Shown piece by piece: positions 9,082 to 51,397 of a stretch of 60,122 nt of DNA. This DNA comes from Vulcanimicrobiota bacterium (GTDB lineage: Bacteria > Vulcanimicrobiota > Vulcanimicrobiia > Eremiobacterales > Eremiobacteraceae): positions 1-60,122 of the forward strand of contig JABCYQ010000018.1 in assembly GCA_013290125.1 (NCBI GenBank), read 5' to 3'. How positions within the stretch are numbered: the stretch's first letter is position 1; every line of letters starts with the position of its first letter. The notes below the pieces were generated by a model. The model made no database searches. It worked only from the letters and a program-made list of their open reading frames with translations, and was not told the origin of the DNA. Position numbers and translations under genes: made by a program.

Positions 9082-9083
9082 AT

Positions 9084-9177
9084 GTAGGGGCCGATTTTGT
9101 TTCGGCCCCGGTTTTGAAGGGGCCGATTTTATATCGGCCCGGTTTTGAAGGGGCCGATTTTATATCGGCCCGGTTTT
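9084..9177. repeat. Tandem array of 31-base REP units
   Basis: A diverged first arm (9084-9109, GTAGGGGCCGATT...) is followed by perfect 31-base units starting GGTTTTGAAGGGGCCGATTT. Copies are at 9110-9140, 9141-9171 and 9172-9202; the third overlaps the left arm of REPIN 2. There are no unique spacers, so it is a plain tandem array. Confidence 0.92.
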
Positions 9178-9243
9178 GAAGGGGCCGATTTTATATCGGC
9201 CCACGTTTTATCGGCCGGGGCCGACGTAAAGTCGGCCCTTCAG
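9178..9243. repeat. REPIN-like element 2
   Basis: The left arm (9178-9202) starts GAAGGGGCCGATT and ends ATCGGCCC. The 15-base spacer is ACGTTTTATCGGCCG (9203-9217). The inverted right arm (9218-9243) ends GGCCCTTCAG. It sits between convergent genes, the glycosyltransferase and a lipoprotein. Confidence 0.88.
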
Positions 9244-9250
9244 TCATTCC

Positions 9251-10192
9251 TTACGGCGTGTGCAGAGCGCAGGCGCCGATCTTGTTGCTCCATAGCGGCT
9301 GGACGGCGAACGAAGATCCGTTCAGCGTGATGTCGGCGAGATTCTGCCACGCGCACGCGTCACCGATCTCACCAAGCGTGTTGCTGTACCATGCCGTGTT
9401 GAGGTTGACTTTCGGATCCGTCTGGCTCTCGGCTTCCTCATGGCCAGCGACGATGCTGACGCCATCAAGGAGGCCGGGCGCGCCCGGGTTGACGCTGTTC
9501 TCACCACAGCTGCCGCCGGCGTCGGTCATGTACGGCAGATTGGTGTATGAGATCTCGCCGCCGCCCGACGTCGTCGGGCTGTGATACGCGCAGAATGTAG
9601 AGCCGAAGCCGGCCGAGTTGTGAAGGTGCGGCGTCGCTACGACGTAGTTGCCGTCGACGTTGTAGCCGAAATGCGCTTCGCCCTTTGCGGCTTCCGCCTG
9701 GATCTGCGCGTCGGTCGGCGACGTCGGCACGGCCGAGGCATCGACCCACGTGCCCGCGAGCTGACCAGTCCTGTTATGGATGTTGAACTTGGAGCTGCCG
9801 ACTTTGTCATAGTACTGCGAATCGGTGTTCAGCCACGGGCTCCCGCCGATGCCGGTCAAGAATGCCGTCAGGTAGGCCTTCTCGTGCGACGGATCCGCGC
9901 TTGCCTTCTGGAATCCCCAGTAGATGACGTAGATGTGCGGCCGGCGCTCGATCGGACCGCCGAAGTATCGAAGGTTGCTCGGGTTGGCGTCGGGCCGGGC
10001 AGAATCCATGGTGCGCATGATGTGCACGCGCGCGGGGTCGATGCCTGCCGCCAACATCGCGCTGTCGCTCCGGACGATCGACTGCGGACTGACCGGGCTC
10101 TGCGGTCCCGGCAGCGAGCTGCCCGCACCACTGCAAGCCGTTAGCGCTGCCGCCGTCAGGCCGATTGCCGCCAATTTCAAAGACTGGTGCAT
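9251..10192 (-). CDS. Secreted lipoprotein resembling plant EXORDIUM/PHI-1 proteins
   Basis: The product has 313 residues. A lipobox LTAC ends the signal peptide (cysteine about 20). From about 85 the sequence reads RPHIYVIYWGFQ. Near the C-terminus, SIVAGHEEAESQTDP is followed by an AWY and GEIGDACAW. This resembles the EXORDIUM/PHI-1 family block (VIAHELAEVATNP, AWY, EIADLCE) and related bacterial exported proteins with an HExxE-like motif. The catalytic role is unproven; the H-E-x-x-E may bind metal. Conserved-looking cysteines (FCAYH, GSCGEN, DACAW, ACALH) suggest disulfides. The function is inferred only at fold level. Confidence 0.6.
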   Translation of the reverse strand: MHQSLKLAAIGLTAAALTACSGAGSSLPGPQSPVSPQSIVRSDSAMLAAGIDPARVHIMRTMDSARPDANPSNLRYFGGPIERRPHIYVIYWGFQKASADPSHEKAYLTAFLTGIGGSPWLNTDSQYYDKVGSSKFNIHNRTGQLAGTWVDASAVPTSPTDAQIQAEAAKGEAHFGYNVDGNYVVATPHLHNSAGFGSTFCAYHSPTTSGGGEISYTNLPYMTDAGGSCGENSVNPGAPGLLDGVSIVAGHEEAESQTDPKVNLNTAWYSNTLGEIGDACAWQNLADITLNGSSFAVQPLWSNKIGACALHTP

Positions 10193-10434: not shown

Positions 10435-11490
10435 TTAGAGAGGCGCTCCAGGATCGGTCGCGACGCCGAACGGCGGGCTCGATGAGCCGAGACCGGTCGA
10501 GATCGTGTTGACTTCAACGCCGCCCGGATACGTGTATTCGTGGACGACGCCGAAGACCGCGTCTGAGACGTAGACGTGCCGCTCATTGCGCACGAGCGCA
10601 ACGCCGAGCGGATCGCCGTTGTCAGATGCGAACGTGAACGACGGTGTGCCTGACGGCAGCTCGTAGATTCCCGCGAACGGGCCGAGCTGGTCGAGCCCAA
10701 GCAGATCCTGCGTGTTATCGAACTGCAGGCCGCCGGGGAATCCCGTCGTGACGCTTGTCAGATGTGCCGTGCCGCTGCCCGGATAGTACTTGACCATCGC
10801 GCCGAGGCCGGTGTTCAGGTCGATGTAGTTGACATACAGCGTGCTGCTGTCATTGAGGCCGTCGAACAGCACTTTCAAGTTGTTCGGCACTGTCAGCATG
10901 GACGTCGGGCTGTTGGCGCCCGGCGCATACACGGACACTGAACCGGCGATGGCGTTCACGTCGAAGATGTTCGACGCGTAAACCGTGCCATCCGAATCAA
11001 CCGCCACGTCGACCGGGAACTGGTTCGGGTCGGCTAGCGTGCGGAACGGGTTCAGGTGGCCCTTGTGGAACACCAGGACGTTGTTGGCGCCAGTATTGGC
11101 GACATAGAGATCGCCGTTGGCTGTCGTGGTCATGCCTTGCGGATTGATCACGCCGTTGACGATCGTGCCGACCGGGCTCTGGCCCGTGCCGGTCTGCCGG
11201 TAGACCTGGATGTCACTGGTGAAGAACTGCGAGACGTACAGGAAAGCATCGCCTGCTCCGACATCCTTGGACATCCATCCCTTGGGTTGCACCGTCGACG
11301 GATGAACGAGAGCCAACTTGGCCGGGTTCATCACTGACGGAACGCGCGACATCGACATCGGGCTGACATGCTGTCCGGACGGCTGACTGCCGGCGATCGG
11401 ATTGACCGCTGACGTGCCACCCGAGCAGCCGGCCAGCGCGGCGATCGCCGCGGCTGCGCCTAGCGCATAGAGCGGGGTAGGAATACGCAT
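10435..11490 (-). CDS. Secreted beta-propeller lipoprotein (NHL/SMP-30-like)
   Basis: The 351-residue protein has a signal peptide ending in lipobox LAGC (cysteine about 22). The mature chain has repeating blade-like segments (GDLYVANTGANNVLVF, GTVYASNIFDVNA, RHVYVSDAVFGVV), typical of YncE/NHL six-bladed propellers in exported proteins. Such domains usually bind ligands or proteins; no catalytic motif is seen. It ends in the terminator above. A second, longer propeller of the same style is at 42770-44305. Confidence 0.75.
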   Translation of the reverse strand: MRIPTPLYALGAAAAIAALAGCSGGTSAVNPIAGSQPSGQHVSPMSMSRVPSVMNPAKLALVHPSTVQPKGWMSKDVGAGDAFLYVSQFFTSDIQVYRQTGTGQSPVGTIVNGVINPQGMTTTANGDLYVANTGANNVLVFHKGHLNPFRTLADPNQFPVDVAVDSDGTVYASNIFDVNAIAGSVSVYAPGANSPTSMLTVPNNLKVLFDGLNDSSTLYVNYIDLNTGLGAMVKYYPGSGTAHLTSVTTGFPGGLQFDNTQDLLGLDQLGPFAGIYELPSGTPSFTFASDNGDPLGVALVRNERHVYVSDAVFGVVHEYTYPGGVEVNTISTGLGSSSPPFGVATDPGAPL

Positions 11491-11553
11491 TCAGTTTATC
11501 TCCTCGAAACGTTTCAGGTGATAGAGATGCGCCCACCGGGCGCGAGCGTATAC

Positions 11554-11582
11554 TGGGTATCGCCACCGGTCGGAGATGTCAA
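11554..11582 (-). promoter_or_regulatory. Possible promoter of the propeller lipoprotein gene
   Basis: A perfect -35 hexamer TTGACA (11582-11577, minus strand) lies about 90 bases upstream of the start. At 17-base spacing the -10 is TACCCA, which is poor, so this is only a candidate. Confidence 0.3.
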
Positions 11583-11587
11583 AAGTA

Positions 11588-11689
11588 TCGAGCAGCTTTT
11601 CCTCGACACTATAGGCATCTCGTGAGACGGTGGTCAGAAGCCGCCCTTCCCCGCAGGGATGGGAAAGCTTGCGCCAGCCTGCGCGTCGG
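11588..11689 (+). ncRNA. Candidate structured RNA in the gap upstream of whiA
   Basis: The 420-base stretch 11491-11913 has no convincing gene. On the plus strand it can fold in order. A hairpin TCGAG/CTCGA (11588-11606) comes first. A closing stem from GAGACG (about 11624) to CGTC...TCTC (about 11684-11694) then encloses two hairpins. One is AAGCCGCCCTTCCC (from 11638), loop CGCA, GGGATGGGAAAGCTT. The other is GCGC CAGCCT GCGC (11671-11684). A terminator follows immediately. No known riboswitch consensus (c-di-GMP-I, SAM, cobalamin, ydaO) fits by eye. The strand is assigned from the terminator's T run. Confidence 0.4.
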
Positions 11690-11743
11690 CTCTCATCTAA
11701 TCCTGTGCCAAAAGTGGCACTCCGCGATGATTAGAGCTTTTTT
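11689..11743 (+). terminator. Rho-independent terminator ending the candidate RNA
   Basis: The inner stem GTGCCA (11705-11710), loop AAAG, TGGCAC (11715-11720) is extended by CTAATC (11697-11702) pairing with GATTAG (11729-11734). GCTCT/AGAGC can pair outside. TTTTTT follows at 11738-11743. No plus-strand gene ends upstream within 2 kb, so the terminated transcript should start in the gap itself. Confidence 0.7.
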
Positions 11744-11913
11744 CCCAAATCGCTCACGCGCGCGCGAAAGTCCCATGTACCTTTGACTCAAGCGAACAGC
11801 CCGGTTGAAGTCCTTTGCCGCGCAGCGAGCTTCGGGTCGCGGCGCGGGAGCCGCCGGTCGGGAACGCCAAGGTCCGCGGCGCAATGGGATTCGTCCGCGA
11901 TCGGACCGCGCGC

Positions 11914-12786
11914 ATGAAGGTCTTTTCGGCCGACGCTAAAGACGAAATCGCTCGCGCGCCGTTTCGGCCCGATTGTTGTCCGCGCGCATTCCTCGCGGCA
12001 TTCGCCGCATTGGGGCGGCGCGATCTGCGAAGCACAAAAAGTGGTGAGGCCACCATTCGCGCGCCTCGGGTGTCGATTGCGCGCGCCGTGCTCAAAGCGG
12101 CTGCGCAAGTCCACATCCGGGCACACGCACAAGATCTTGACACGCGACGCGCGCGCGAAACGCATTCCGTCGCAGTCACGCTTGACGTGCAGACGTTGGC
12201 CAAGCGTATGCATCCGGCGCGCGCATGTTGCCGGCGCGCGTGGATCCGCGGCGCATTCCTCGCATGCGGATCGGTCGCAGATCCGACGCGCGGTTATCAC
12301 CTCGAGTTCAACGCGCGCGACGATGCCGCGGCGCGCGCGATCGCTGCGGGCTTAGCAGCCGTCGGCGTCGATGCGGGGATCTCTCGTCGCAGAAAAAAGC
12401 CGCTCGCATACGTGAAAGGCGGCCAAGCTGTCGCTGATCTCCTTGCGCAGATGGGCGCGACGCAGACCGTCCTCTCGTTGGACGACGTGCGCGCGCGGCG
12501 CGAGACGAAGAACAGCATCCGGCGCACGGTGAATAGCGAAGCCGCGAACGCCGCGCGCGCCGGAACCGCGTCGGCACGCCAGCTCGAAGCGGCCACGACG
12601 TTGCTTCATCCCGCTCGCGTGCATGTGCTTTCGGCGGCTCTTCGAGAAGCCGCGCGATTGCGTCATGCGCATCCCGACCTGACCTTGAGCGAACTCGGGC
12701 GCCGCGCGCGGCCGGTTGTGACGAAATCCTCGATGGCCTATCGCCTGCGCGAGATCGAGCGCCTGGCCCACTCCCGCCGCCGTTGA
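11914..12786 (+). CDS. whiA: WhiA, DNA-binding protein (sporulation/cell-division regulator family)
   Basis: WhiA family proteins combine a LAGLIDADG-like N-terminal domain with a C-terminal HTH and influence cell division and carbon metabolism. The N-terminus MKVFSADAKDEIARAPF then DCC matches the family start (FSxxxKxEL...CC). The C-terminus (REAARLRHAHPDLTLSELG, then TKSSMAYRLREIE) matches the WhiA HTH. With ATG 11914 it has 290 residues, slightly short for the family; an in-frame ATG at 11884 and TTG at 11815 would add non-family residues. It is followed by gap-pgk-tpiA, as in Actinobacteria. Confidence 0.88.
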   Translation: MKVFSADAKDEIARAPFRPDCCPRAFLAAFAALGRRDLRSTKSGEATIRAPRVSIARAVLKAAAQVHIRAHAQDLDTRRARETHSVAVTLDVQTLAKRMHPARACCRRAWIRGAFLACGSVADPTRGYHLEFNARDDAAARAIAAGLAAVGVDAGISRRRKKPLAYVKGGQAVADLLAQMGATQTVLSLDDVRARRETKNSIRRTVNSEAANAARAGTASARQLEAATTLLHPARVHVLSAALREAARLRHAHPDLTLSELGRRARPVVTKSSMAYRLREIERLAHSRRR

Positions 12787-22517: not shown

Positions 22518-22563
22518 CCTGCGGTCCAGTAATCCTCGTGTATCTGAAGGTCCGGTCGTTTCT

Positions 22564-22628
22564 GAAGGGCTCGACGCTAGTCGGCCCGCGTTACGTCCGC
22601 TCGGGCCGACTAGCGTCGGCCCCTTCAG
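22564..22628. repeat. REPIN-like element 3, overlapping the 3' end of tgt
   Basis: The left arm (22564-22587) reads GAAGGGCTCGACGCTAGTCG then GCCC. The spacer is GCGTTACGTCCGCTC (22588-22602) and the right arm (22603-22628) ends GTCGGCCCCTTCAG. The tgt stop codon (22591-22593) lies in the spacer and its last codons are the right arm. Confidence 0.9.
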
Positions 22629-23733
22629 AAAATCGAGCCACGCGCTCGGCGCGATAGTCGGCGAAGCGCCCGGCGAGAATGGCATCGCGCGCGCCGGCTG
22701 CGAGACGGATCATGAACGTGATATTGTGCAGACTGAGCAGACGTGCGCCGAGCATCTCCCCTGCACGCATGCAGTGCGCGAGATACGCGCGAGTGAAATC
22801 CGCGCAGGCGGCGCAGCTGCAGTCGGGATCCAAGGGCGTGAAATCGTCGGCGAAGCGGGCGTTGCGGAGATTGAGACGCCCGACGGAAGTAAGTGCGAGT
22901 GCGTGCCGCGCGCAGCGTGTGGGATAGACGCAGTCGAACATATCCACGCCCGCCTCGATTCCGGCGAGCAGATCCTCCGGCGTGCCGACGCCCATCAGGT
23001 AGCGCGGCTTCTCTGCGGGCAGTTCATCGCACGTCGCTCGCGTCATCGCAATGCTCGAGGCGCGCTCCTCACCGAGCCACAACCCGCCGATCGCATAGCC
23101 AGGGAAATCCAACGATACGAGATCACGCCCGTTCGCGCGTCGCACGTCTTCAAACGTCGCGCCTTGCACGATCGCGAAGGTCAGTTGATCGCCGCGCGTC
23201 TTGGCTCGGCGCGCCCGCTCGGCCCAGCCGAGAGTCCGTCGCGCGGCATCGGCGACGCGGTCGCGGTCGGCATCCGGCGGCGCGACGTCGTCGAGGACCA
23301 TCGCGATATCGCTCCCCAACGCTTCTTGCAACGCGACGACCGACTCGGGCGTGAACGTGTGGCGCGTACCGTCGAGGTGCGACGCGAAATGATAGCCGGC
23401 GTCATCGACGCGCGAGAGCTTGCTCAGCGAGAACACCTGGAAGCCGCCGCTGTCCGTCAGAATGGCGCGATCCCACGACATGAATCCGTGCAGCCCGCCG
23501 GCGCGCTCGATGATCTCTGCGCCAGGCCGCAAATAACAGTGATACGCATTGGCCAGGATGATCCGTGCGCCGCTCGTGCGCAGTTCGTCCGGCGCAAGAG
23601 ACTTGACGGCGGCTTGGGTGCCGACCGGCATGAAGACCGGCGTGGGCACGTCGCCGTGGCGCGTGCGCAAGATGCCGGCGCGCGCATCTCCGTCGGTTTT
23701 CTCAAGCGTGAACGCCGAGTGCGAAACCGTCAT
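22591..23733 (-). CDS. tgt: Queuine tRNA-ribosyltransferase
   Basis: Tgt exchanges guanine 34 for the queuosine precursor in GUN-anticodon tRNAs. The 380 residues include FMPVGTQAAVKSL, the catalytic Asp in LTDSGGFQVFSLSKL, AIGGLWLGEE and RYLMGVGTPEDLLAGIEAGVDMFDCVYPTR. The zinc site is CSCAAC plus a later His. The start is ATG 23733, overlapping the rluD stop (ATGA). The last 11 residues (EGADASRPERT) are encoded by REPIN 3. Confidence 0.95.
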   Translation of the reverse strand: MTVSHSAFTLEKTDGDARAGILRTRHGDVPTPVFMPVGTQAAVKSLAPDELRTSGARIILANAYHCYLRPGAEIIERAGGLHGFMSWDRAILTDSGGFQVFSLSKLSRVDDAGYHFASHLDGTRHTFTPESVVALQEALGSDIAMVLDDVAPPDADRDRVADAARRTLGWAERARRAKTRGDQLTFAIVQGATFEDVRRANGRDLVSLDFPGYAIGGLWLGEERASSIAMTRATCDELPAEKPRYLMGVGTPEDLLAGIEAGVDMFDCVYPTRCARHALALTSVGRLNLRNARFADDFTPLDPDCSCAACADFTRAYLAHCMRAGEMLGARLLSLHNITFMIRLAAGARDAILAGRFADYRAERVARFSEGADASRPERT

Positions 23734-25138: not shown

Positions 25139-25939
25139 CTACTTCTTGACGTCGTACGCGGCGACTAAGCTCTCGATGCTCTGACCCGTGAGGTACGAGA
25201 TATAGACCGGCACGAGCGGGAGCACGCACGGTGAGATGAACGACACGAGCCCGGCGACGAAGACCGCGCCGATCGTGATGACGTCGCCGTTGGCCTCAGG
25301 TCCCGTGCCGAGATTCGCAAGCGCCGGGAACGTCTCATACAGCCACGCCGTGAAGCGAAGGAATCCATTCGTGAACAGCACGAGTCCCGTCGCGACGACG
25401 AGTAAACCCGCTACGAATTCGACGACCGGCAAAAATCGTTTGATGCGATTGAGGAATGGCAGCACGTACTGCAGGCCGATCGCTGTCGCAAGCAGCGGCA
25501 CACCGAGACCCATCGAATAGACGAAGAGCAACCACATTGCCTGACCGACGGTCTGTGCTGTGCTCGCCATCCCGAGAACTGCCGCGAGGATCGGGCCGAT
25601 GCACGGCGACCAGCCGGCTGCGAAGCCGACTCCGACTAGCACGTCGCCGGCATATGAAACGCCGCCCTTGCGGAATTGCAAGCGTTTGTCCATCGCGAGG
25701 AACGGCAGCCGGAACAGGCCCATCATATTCAGGCCAAGAATGATGATGACGATCCCGAGCACGTGCGTTATGGCCGTTCGATATGTTTCGAACAGCGTTC
25801 CGAGCGCGCTTGCCGAAGCGCCGGCTGCGATGAAAACGAGCGTAAATCCAAGGATGAAGAACAACGAATGGATGACGACATCCCGGCGACCGGCGCCGGG
25901 TGCGGCAGCCGCGCCGACCGCTTGTGTGCTAGAACTCAT
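25139..25939 (-). CDS. ccdA: CcdA-family thiol-redox membrane protein, apparently circularly permuted
   Basis: CcdA/DsbD-type proteins pass electrons across the membrane for cytochrome c maturation. The 266 residues have six hydrophobic helices (about 21-45, 58-76, 98-122, 134-160, 170-200, 220-247). In the usual order the SPCVLPLVP helix is first. Here VFVAGLVSFISPCVLPLVPV is last (Cys238). The N-terminus starts with the HSLFFILGFTLVFIAAG helix that is normally second. The other cysteine, in GWSPCIGP (Cys113), is normal. Each canonical helix appears once, so nothing is missing. It precedes lspA by 12 bases. Confidence 0.85.
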   Translation of the reverse strand: MSSSTQAVGAAAAPGAGRRDVVIHSLFFILGFTLVFIAAGASASALGTLFETYRTAITHVLGIVIIILGLNMMGLFRLPFLAMDKRLQFRKGGVSYAGDVLVGVGFAAGWSPCIGPILAAVLGMASTAQTVGQAMWLLFVYSMGLGVPLLATAIGLQYVLPFLNRIKRFLPVVEFVAGLLVVATGLVLFTNGFLRFTAWLYETFPALANLGTGPEANGDVITIGAVFVAGLVSFISPCVLPLVPVYISYLTGQSIESLVAAYDVKK

Positions 25940-25999
25940 ATCTGATCTGCGGCCTGCCGTCTCTGAATTCGCGAACTCGCGTCACGAAGGAGTTTCTGC

Positions 26000-26860
26000 T
26001 TGACCGCTGCGCTGGCAACGGCATCGCATTGGTTTACGTATCCGAATATCAATCCGGTTGCATTCCATATCGGAATACTTTCAGTCCGATGGTATGGCAT
26101 CACGTACCTTATCGGCGCCATGCTCGTCTACCTCCAGATGCAGCGTGCCGGAAGTCGAGCGCGCACAGGCATGACAGTCGATCAAGCGCAGGAATTTGTC
26201 GTATACGCCATGATCGGCGTCGTGCTGGGTGGGCGACTGTTTTTCTTGATCGCCGATGTGCTGACGCCGGCTGCAGCGGGCGGCAATTCGATATCACACT
26301 ATCTTCAGAATCCGCTCGACATCATCGCGATCTGGAAAGGGGGCATGGCGTTTCACGGCGGGCTCATCGGCGCCATCATCGGAATATGGCTGTTCGTCCG
26401 TCGCAACAAGCTGGCGTTTTATCCCGTCACCGATGAAGCGGCGCTCTGGATCCCCGTCGCGATCGCGCTCACGCGTTGCGCGAACTTCATCAATGGCGAA
26501 TTGCCAGGCCGACTGACCGCGTCACCGATCGGGATCCTGTTTCCTGATTATCCGGGCTATCGCTATCCGTCGCAGCTTTTTGAAGCCGTGGGAATGCTCG
26601 TCATCGTGTTGCCGCTGCTCTGGTGGATCCATGGCGCGGTTCGCAGACAGGACGGTCAGGTGCTGTGGGCGTTCATCGCCGGATACGGCCTGGTTCGCAC
26701 CATCGTCGAATTTTATCGCGAGCCCGGCATCGTGTTCCTCGGACTGACCGGCGCGCAGTACCTGACGATCGCGATGTTCATACTCGGCATCGTGATGTAT
26801 TGGCAGGTCTCGCGACCGAAGACGATCACAACGACAAGCGGTCGCGTTCGCACGACGTGA
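26000..26860 (+). CDS. lgt: Prolipoprotein diacylglyceryl transferase
   Basis: Lgt transfers diacylglycerol from phosphatidylglycerol to the lipobox cysteine. The 286 residues have about seven membrane segments. Motifs: SVRWYGITYLIGAML near the start, GGRLFFLI, GGMAFHGGLIG with the key His, RCANFINGELPGR and RYPSQLFEA. TTG 26000 is chosen, with AAGGAG 7 bases upstream. It is divergent from ccdA-lspA. The stop overlaps the next GTG. Confidence 0.95.
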   Translation: MTAALATASHWFTYPNINPVAFHIGILSVRWYGITYLIGAMLVYLQMQRAGSRARTGMTVDQAQEFVVYAMIGVVLGGRLFFLIADVLTPAAAGGNSISHYLQNPLDIIAIWKGGMAFHGGLIGAIIGIWLFVRRNKLAFYPVTDEAALWIPVAIALTRCANFINGELPGRLTASPIGILFPDYPGYRYPSQLFEAVGMLVIVLPLLWWIHGAVRRQDGQVLWAFIAGYGLVRTIVEFYREPGIVFLGLTGAQYLTIAMFILGIVMYWQVSRPKTITTTSGRVRTT

Positions 26861-27323
26861 GGCTCGGCGTCACGATCTGGACCGCCGCCGTCTTTCTCGC
26901 CTTCGCGACGCCCGTCGCGGCCAACGTGTCACCATCCGGCCCAGCGTTGATCACGAGGCAAGCGATGAAAGTTTTGGATGGTGTGTGGACCTGCCGCCAG
27001 CATATCATCGGCAGCACGACATCGACGACCACGCTCACTATCGCGCCGGCGAACGAGACGCAGTGGATGCACGCCTCGATGCTTGGACGATGTTCGTAGT
27101 CACCGACGGTGAAAAGGGTGAGTTCGGCGGCGACTGGTGGCAAGGAAACACGTTTACGTGGCATGGCACCATGCAGGACATGCTGGCGGGGCATTTCTAC
27201 AATCGCGAGATCGTTTGGACGCGCCGTGGCGAGTCGGGCCTGGCTTGGAATGAATATGACGTGTTGGCCGGCGGCGAGCGCGTGCTCTTCTTATCATCGA
27301 TTTGCTCGATGAAGCCTCACTGA
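26857..27323 (+). pseudogene. Secreted protein gene split by a -1 frameshift
   Basis: GTG 26857 overlaps the lgt stop and opens a frame with a signal peptide (TIWTAAVFLAFATPVAA) and KVLDGVWTCRQHIIG, ending at TAG 27097-27099. The same-strand frame that is -1 relative to it continues sensibly from about 27078 (DAWTMFVVTDGEKGEFGGDW to 27323). The two halves look like one roughly 155-residue secreted beta-barrel-like protein. An in-frame ATG at 27090 could restart translation. It may be a real mutation, a sequencing error or two small genes; no classic slippery site is seen. Confidence 0.55.
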
Positions 27324-27342
27324 TGCCTGAAAGGATCCTTTT

Positions 27343-28221
27343 GTGTTTGTTGTGCAAGCAATCATCATACTCGCGGCCATCGCGATGGCCATCCTCGTCG
27401 GTCGACGCATCGTTTCCGCCGAGCGCATCGACTACCGGGCTCTCATTGAAGCGGTGGCTATCGTCGCAGTAGCGATCGGCATCACGTCATCGTTCGGCGA
27501 GATACCGGCCGGTTCGCGTGGGGTTGTACTGCGCTTCGGCGCCACGACCGGTGAAGTAAAACAGCCGGGCTTCTATGTCATAACGCCGTTCATCGAGAGC
27601 GTGCAGCCCATCAACTGCCAGGTCGTCGCGTTCTCTGCCGACGCCAGCGCCGCGTCGCTCGATTTGCAGACCGTTCAGACGAAGGTCACGCTCAACTACT
27701 CCGTCGACCCGGATAAGGTCGTGGATCTCTACAACCGGCTGAACATGGAGTACGAGGATCGCATCGTGGCGCCGTCCATTCAGGAAGCGACCAAGGCCAC
27801 TACCGCGAGGTTCAAGGCCAGCGACCTCATCACTGAGCGGCAAATCGCGCAGGACGCGCTTGAGAAGAACCTCGATACGCGGCTGCAATCTTTTGACATG
27901 CACGTCGCGGCCATCTCAATCACCGACTTCCAGTTCTCCACCGATTTCGCCAACGCCATCGAAGCAAAGGTCGTCGCGTATCAAAACTTCCTGCAGGCGC
28001 AGAACAAGTTGAAGCAGATCCAAGTCGAGGCGCAGCAGAACATCGCACAAGCCCAAGGCGAGGCGACCGCCACCAGGCTGCGGCGCGAGCAGATCACGCC
28101 GCTCACCGTCGAGTACGATGCGGTGCACGTCTGGGATGGCAAACTGCCGGGCGTGGTGGGCGGCGCGATACCGTTCTTCAACCTCGGCAACTTGGATTCA
28201 CAGACCACTCCCAACAAATGA
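27343..28221 (+). CDS. SPFH/prohibitin-family membrane protein
   Basis: The 292-residue protein has two N-terminal hydrophobic segments (about 1-20 and 35-50). The SPFH domain follows (SSFGEIPAGSRGVVLRFGAT, GFYVITPFIESVQ, LQTVQTKVTLNYSV). A coiled-coil (about 205-255, FLQAQNKLKQIQVEAQQNIAQAQGEA) and a short tail end it. Prohibitin-like proteins assemble in membrane rings and often modulate FtsH-type proteases. GTG start, 19 bases after the broken gene. Confidence 0.88.
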   Translation: MFVVQAIIILAAIAMAILVGRRIVSAERIDYRALIEAVAIVAVAIGITSSFGEIPAGSRGVVLRFGATTGEVKQPGFYVITPFIESVQPINCQVVAFSADASAASLDLQTVQTKVTLNYSVDPDKVVDLYNRLNMEYEDRIVAPSIQEATKATTARFKASDLITERQIAQDALEKNLDTRLQSFDMHVAAISITDFQFSTDFANAIEAKVVAYQNFLQAQNKLKQIQVEAQQNIAQAQGEATATRLRREQITPLTVEYDAVHVWDGKLPGVVGGAIPFFNLGNLDSQTTPNK

Positions 28222-51294: not shown

Positions 51295-51305
51295 TCGCTA
51301 TATTT

Positions 51306-51370
51306 GAAGGGGCCGACGCTAGTCGGCCCACGTCACGTTCGCTTGGGCCGACTAACGTCGGCCCCTTCAG
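51306..51370. repeat. REPIN-like element 5
   Basis: The left arm (51306-51329) starts GAAGGGGCCGACGC, the spacer is ACGTCACGTTCGCTT (51330-51344), and the right arm (51345-51370) ends GTCGGCCCCTTCAG. It lies between convergent birA and lipA. Confidence 0.9.
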
Positions 51371-51397
51371 GTAGTTCCCCTCAGTGTGATTGGTCGG

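Follow-up and report, generated by a model that had tools for sequence, protein, structure and literature searches.

A conserved element in the gap before whiA as a candidate cis-acting leader of an NHL-repeat lipoprotein gene

The window, i.e., the whole stretch of 60,122 nucleotides that was analysed, contains at 11491-11883 a gap between a minus-strand gene for an NHL-repeat lipoprotein (10435-11490) and the plus-strand whiA gene. Our main reading, to which we give a probability of about 0.55, is that this gap carries a cis-acting leader of the lipoprotein gene. The minus strand has a conserved core at 11635-11745, which lies 144 bases before the lipoprotein gene; in three species of one genus, NHL lipoproteins are preceded by the same arrangement. 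The element would be a new, narrowly distributed leader that probably acts as RNA, and possibly as a DNA control region. An earlier note on this DNA had proposed a plus-strand structured RNA associated with whiA; this assignment looks wrong, and the element looks like a minus-strand one that forms the control region of the lipoprotein gene. Its parts and neighbours, in window coordinates, are listed here (models R1 and R2 are described below).

10435..11490, minus strand: gene for the NHL-repeat lipoprotein, on which the element probably acts (Pfam NHL, 5.2e-10; lipobox-type N-terminus by eye)
11500..11505, minus strand: ribosome-binding site GAGGAG, by eye
11559..11564, minus strand: GGYGAT box, in 4/4 copies; position relative to the ATG, -59 to -75
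11563..11633, minus strand: variable arm P4, with a CCACCG/CGGTGG base and an apical hairpin at 11584-11610, from the fold of the four copies
11635..11745, minus strand: conserved core of the leader element, matched by R2; a third species (G002) has two copies with this core, first found by R1
11638..11670, minus strand: hairpin P3 with boxes 4 (AAGCKTWCC) and 5 (GGGAAGG), which is the first hairpin of the earlier note on the opposite strand
11680..11688, minus strand: box 3, CGA(CG/AA)CGCA, in 4/4 copies
11700..11704, minus strand: box 2, AGGAT, 26 bases after box 1
11705..11720, minus strand: hairpin GTGCCA/TGGCAC directly before box 2, strong in the window and its sister species, weaker in the other two copies
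11731..11740, minus strand: box 1, AAAGYTCTAA, in 4/4 copies and 0/24 other NHL leaders
11687..11741, plus strand: terminator-like stem with its T run, whose terminator form is not conserved (sister comparison, shuffles)
11884..12786, plus strand: whiA, with an in-frame ATG at 11884 common to the sister

When 61 genomes were searched with the gap sequence, matches were obtained only in its own genome and in one congener (the sister, G001), with which the gap is 82.7% identical. Because this identity exceeds both that of third codon positions in six nearby genes read in frame (54-75%, the glycosyltransferase gene being left out) and that of the three nearest other intergenic gaps (63.6-72.9%), the gap, as judged from this comparison, is under selection. 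Further stretches in the same table were 72-89% identical and possibly overlap genes, so that the comparison rests on the nearest gaps. A coding remnant was rejected, since comparison of window and sister shows broken frames on both strands; in a plus-strand frame 12 of 23 differences fell on third positions (p ~0.05, an estimate), but this frame is interrupted in the window. A repeat or mobile element was also rejected, the gap being single-copy in its own genome. At 11770-11796 lie 27 bases without any difference from the sister; part of this block (TTGAGNCAAANGTACNTG, minus strand) is shared with the third-species copy that lies beside a divergent gene, and the block is perhaps a promoter. 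Elsewhere in the window, a GGGGCCGATTTTATATCGGCCC-type unit was seen by eye in tandem and inverted copies at 9082-9240, after the glycosyltransferase gene, and dispersed repeats of ~70 bases occur at 22560-22630 and 51300-51372, with several relatives in the sister contig.

A model built by sequence alone from the window and sister copies (R1) was run on 117 genomes of the class, and it matched only these two source species and G002, at C74:27983-28101 (E 4.7e-4) and 26397-26510 (E 6.1e-3). About one chance match is expected at E 0.01 over 117 genomes, so that the R1 scores alone are modest. Each G002 copy immediately precedes a minus-strand NHL lipoprotein (26830-27876 and 25222-26301), and the upstream regions of these two genes align at 72% over 101 bases (E 4e-10). 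The element is thus known in four copies within one genus, i.e., one in the window, one in the sister and two in G002, and all four lie on the lipoprotein's own strand, 93-144 bases before its ATG. A position on the same strand, just upstream of one kind of gene, as expected of a cis-acting leader, was therefore observed in 4/4 copies. The G002 copy at 26395-26505 is flanked by two same-strand genes and hence serves no divergent gene. Three of the four copies are syntenic or tandem and all belong to one genus, so they represent few independent events.

The restricted distribution was borne out by other searches. A pattern of boxes 1 and 2 plus AAGC gave four matches in the 117 genomes, all in this genus, and the reversed control pattern gave none. 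A second model made from all four copies (R2, which includes the window copy by construction) gave no additional match when run on 24 chosen genomes, or when 18 loci holding other NHL genes were scanned with its filters off. Weak R2 matches in two of 149 phylum genomes (G123 and G101) fell inside protein-coding frames, and pattern matches in G026 and G052 were unsupported by R2; all were discarded as chance. After reading 29 NHL loci, dropping two that had no start codon and adding the window, 28 leaders were available, four with the element and 24 without it, and the full box set was present in 0/24 of the latter. Searches of phages and plasmids gave no match to the element, and one exact pattern found nothing in viral contigs; a loose box pattern there hit 67 loci, none of which fitted the model at E 0.1, and these were taken as chance. 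With Rfam 15 at the gathering cut-off only three tRNAs were found in the window and only tRNAs in seven further loci. At E 10 the gap gave a single match, of chance level at 13.1 bits where the cut-off is 50, and a third-species copy gave none, so that the element does not reach the score of any Rfam family. The earlier note's candidate, a structured element without a known family, stands to this extent: the element is conserved, probably structured, and no family was retrieved. Literature searches found no paper on it, which is no proof of absence.

The NHL lipoproteins of window and sister are 86% identical. This protein family is expanded to at least ~27-34 matches in G002, G026, G032, G041, G046, G052 and G055, with two members each in the window genome and the sister and none in many relatives. 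A second lipoprotein-like gene, with no Pfam or NCBIfam match, is present in the window at 9251-10192 (minus strand), and the third species has a relative of it at L076 7930-8979, within its NHL array.

On the lipoprotein's own strand the five boxes, P3, P4 and the GGYGAT box span about -250 to -69 of the ATG. The spacing from box 1 to box 5 is near-constant in the four copies (34, 18, 18 and 18-19), and the distance from the start of box 5 to GGYGAT is variable (51-86 bases). We then analysed folding against shuffled sequences; z values are given in the order window, sister, G002 27993-28102 and G002 26395-26505. P3 (AAGCN...NGCTT) formed in 4/4 copies (z -1.57, -1.74, -2.59 and -1.53), its fifth pair being U-G in two copies and G-U in the other two, and its end pair being broken in one. 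P4 measured 76, 74, 48 and 40 bases as cut and differed in sequence, with a hairpin arm in each copy that folded better than shuffles in 4/4 (z -4.11, -2.35, -2.28 and -3.20). The whole element gave -3.11, -2.40, -1.18 and -2.80. A z of -2 or lower was reached by 3/4 element leaders and 3/24 other NHL leaders with a 76-base window, by 3/4 and 2/24 with a 150-base window, and by 1/4 and 3/24 with a 48-base window. RNAalifold on the four cores predicted 12 consensus pairs, two of them with changes on both sides, among four sequences; the covariation is minimal and only suggestive. Furthermore, the opposite strand of the whole element folded with z of -3.67, -3.26, -2.31 and -1.66; both strands fold about equally, and therefore folding cannot choose the strand.

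These features bear also on the main rival, a DNA control region, in which the boxes would bind proteins or form parts of a promoter for the lipoprotein gene, perhaps also for a divergent gene, and the hairpins would be DNA dyads. We regard this as possible, at a tentative level. The rigid box spacing, the equal folding of both strands, the weak covariation, the perfect GTGCCA/TGGCAC dyad and the 27-base block, which is identical in the sister and partly kept in the third-species copy beside a divergent gene, would all be in keeping with it. However, P4 varies in length and sequence yet remains a hairpin arm, the third species does not share the sequence of the dyad (among 14 genomes, window and sister alone matched its pattern), and the conserved stretch of ~180 bases is long for a promoter. 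The GTGCC/GGCAC dyad was also weighed as a sigma-54 site, which was rejected because no -12 element was seen by eye. No minus-strand promoter was recognised upstream of the core, and the sole sigma-70-like match in the gap falls inside the element.

The position before the ribosome-binding site, together with a rigid core and a variable arm, suggests a cis-acting 5′ leader. In this leader reading, the element would be transcribed as the 5′ untranslated region of the lipoprotein gene, the transcript would fold around P3 and P4, and the fold would set lipoprotein translation by exposing or hiding the ribosome-binding site; alternatively, the element may act by binding a protein or a small RNA. 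The ribosome-binding site has possible pairing partners: in both third-species copies they lie at GGYGAT or immediately past it (8-9 pairs), and in the window ATCTCC, within P4, is complementary to GGAGAT (6 pairs); the complements found in the sister were unconvincing. Since chance readily produces matches of six pairs, translation control is something we infer. The most specific version, a new riboswitch-like RNA class of one genus whose rigid five-box core and variable arm act on the ribosome-binding site of an NHL surface lipoprotein, seems to us unlikely.

On the plus strand, the earlier note had described a three-way-junction-like fold followed by a terminator. The gap, the hairpin at 11638-11670 and the GCGC/GCGC hairpin at 11671-11684 are all present as it claimed. 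The three-way fold (11622-11700) is not above chance (z -0.37; 72 of 200 shuffles fold as well), the enclosing GAGACG/CGTC..TCTC pairing is not kept in the sister, and the stretch as originally delimited (11588-11743) gave z -0.27, with 77/200 shuffles folding as well. The hairpin at 11638-11670 is retained in the sister and, in reshaped form, in both third-species copies. The terminator fared better in the window itself: a plus-strand stem at ~11687-11737 is followed by six T, and the stem alone gave z -3.10, matched by 2/200 shuffles. In the sister, however, the T run and the 3′ arm are kept letter for letter, the 5′ arm differs and the stem is lost (z -1.40 for the same 56 bases), and no T run was read at that place in the third-species copies. 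A stem plus T run kept in relatives, the mark of an intrinsic terminator, was thus not found; loss of the stem with retention of the T run and 3′ arm is hard to reconcile with selection for a terminator and agrees with conservation of the sequence for some other reason.

It is accordingly very improbable that the gap yields a small RNA from the plus strand, or an attenuator of whiA, that ends at the terminator 11687-11741, in spite of the well-folding stem and its six T, since the related copies are tied to minus-strand NHL lipoproteins and the relatives of whiA lack the element. It is correct that no plus-strand gene is found in more than 2 kb upstream of the gap, but one copy of the element has no divergent gene, and whiA of the third species directly follows another gene, a regulator-like one. 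In 8/8 other family members read (G003-G006, G009 and G011-G013) whiA begins at most ~110 bases after the preceding plus-strand gene, which is a glycosyltransferase in seven of them, and such a gap before whiA is absent from all eight. In the window, an ATG at 11914 within whiA is not shared by the sister; downstream of whiA come a glyceraldehyde-3-phosphate dehydrogenase gene and then frames that we take to be pgk, tpiA and gpmI. As separate observations, G002 whiA (L076:14995-15987, plus strand) carries near its N-terminus a tandem GTACTAGGGCAAGCATCGCTTGCCC-type repeat that is read through in frame, and repeats of this type also precede NHL genes in G002; the stretch at 11843-11870, just upstream of whiA in the window, has a short similarity to the whiA 3′ end of several class members, which may be chance or a remnant.

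The conserved feature could also be a leader peptide or small gene, namely the minus-strand frame at 11693-11776 (27 codons), whose ATG is shared with the sister, as is a stop at nearly the same place. We consider this most improbable: the 23 differences in the ungapped block against the sister are not biased to third positions (6 third, 12 first and 5 second), and, by eye, one third-species copy has no start codon after the last stop and the other runs past the stop. A comparison is offered by the ilvB-II motif of Corynebacterium, which likewise is conserved ahead of a single gene within one genus and was first sought as a structured RNA; every representative described there carries the start and stop codon of a leader peptide (PMC10272879). 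In contrast, a start and stop are present in the window and sister copies, and no start was seen by eye in one of the four copies, which is from the third species. The element resembles riboswitches and other structured 5′ leader RNAs in its conserved boxes and hairpins upstream of a start codon on the gene's own strand, in its variable arm and in the possible pairing to the ribosome-binding site; unlike them, it has no Rfam family match and was found in a single genus.

These results indicate that what looks like a convincing terminator on the plus strand can be a by-product of conservation for the opposite strand, and that one sister and one further species sufficed to reverse both the strand and the target gene. 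Should the element be an RNA, it would represent a leader not described so far, linked to a lipoprotein family with at least 34 matches in one genome of the genus, and only the lipoprotein copies nearest whiA would be under its control.
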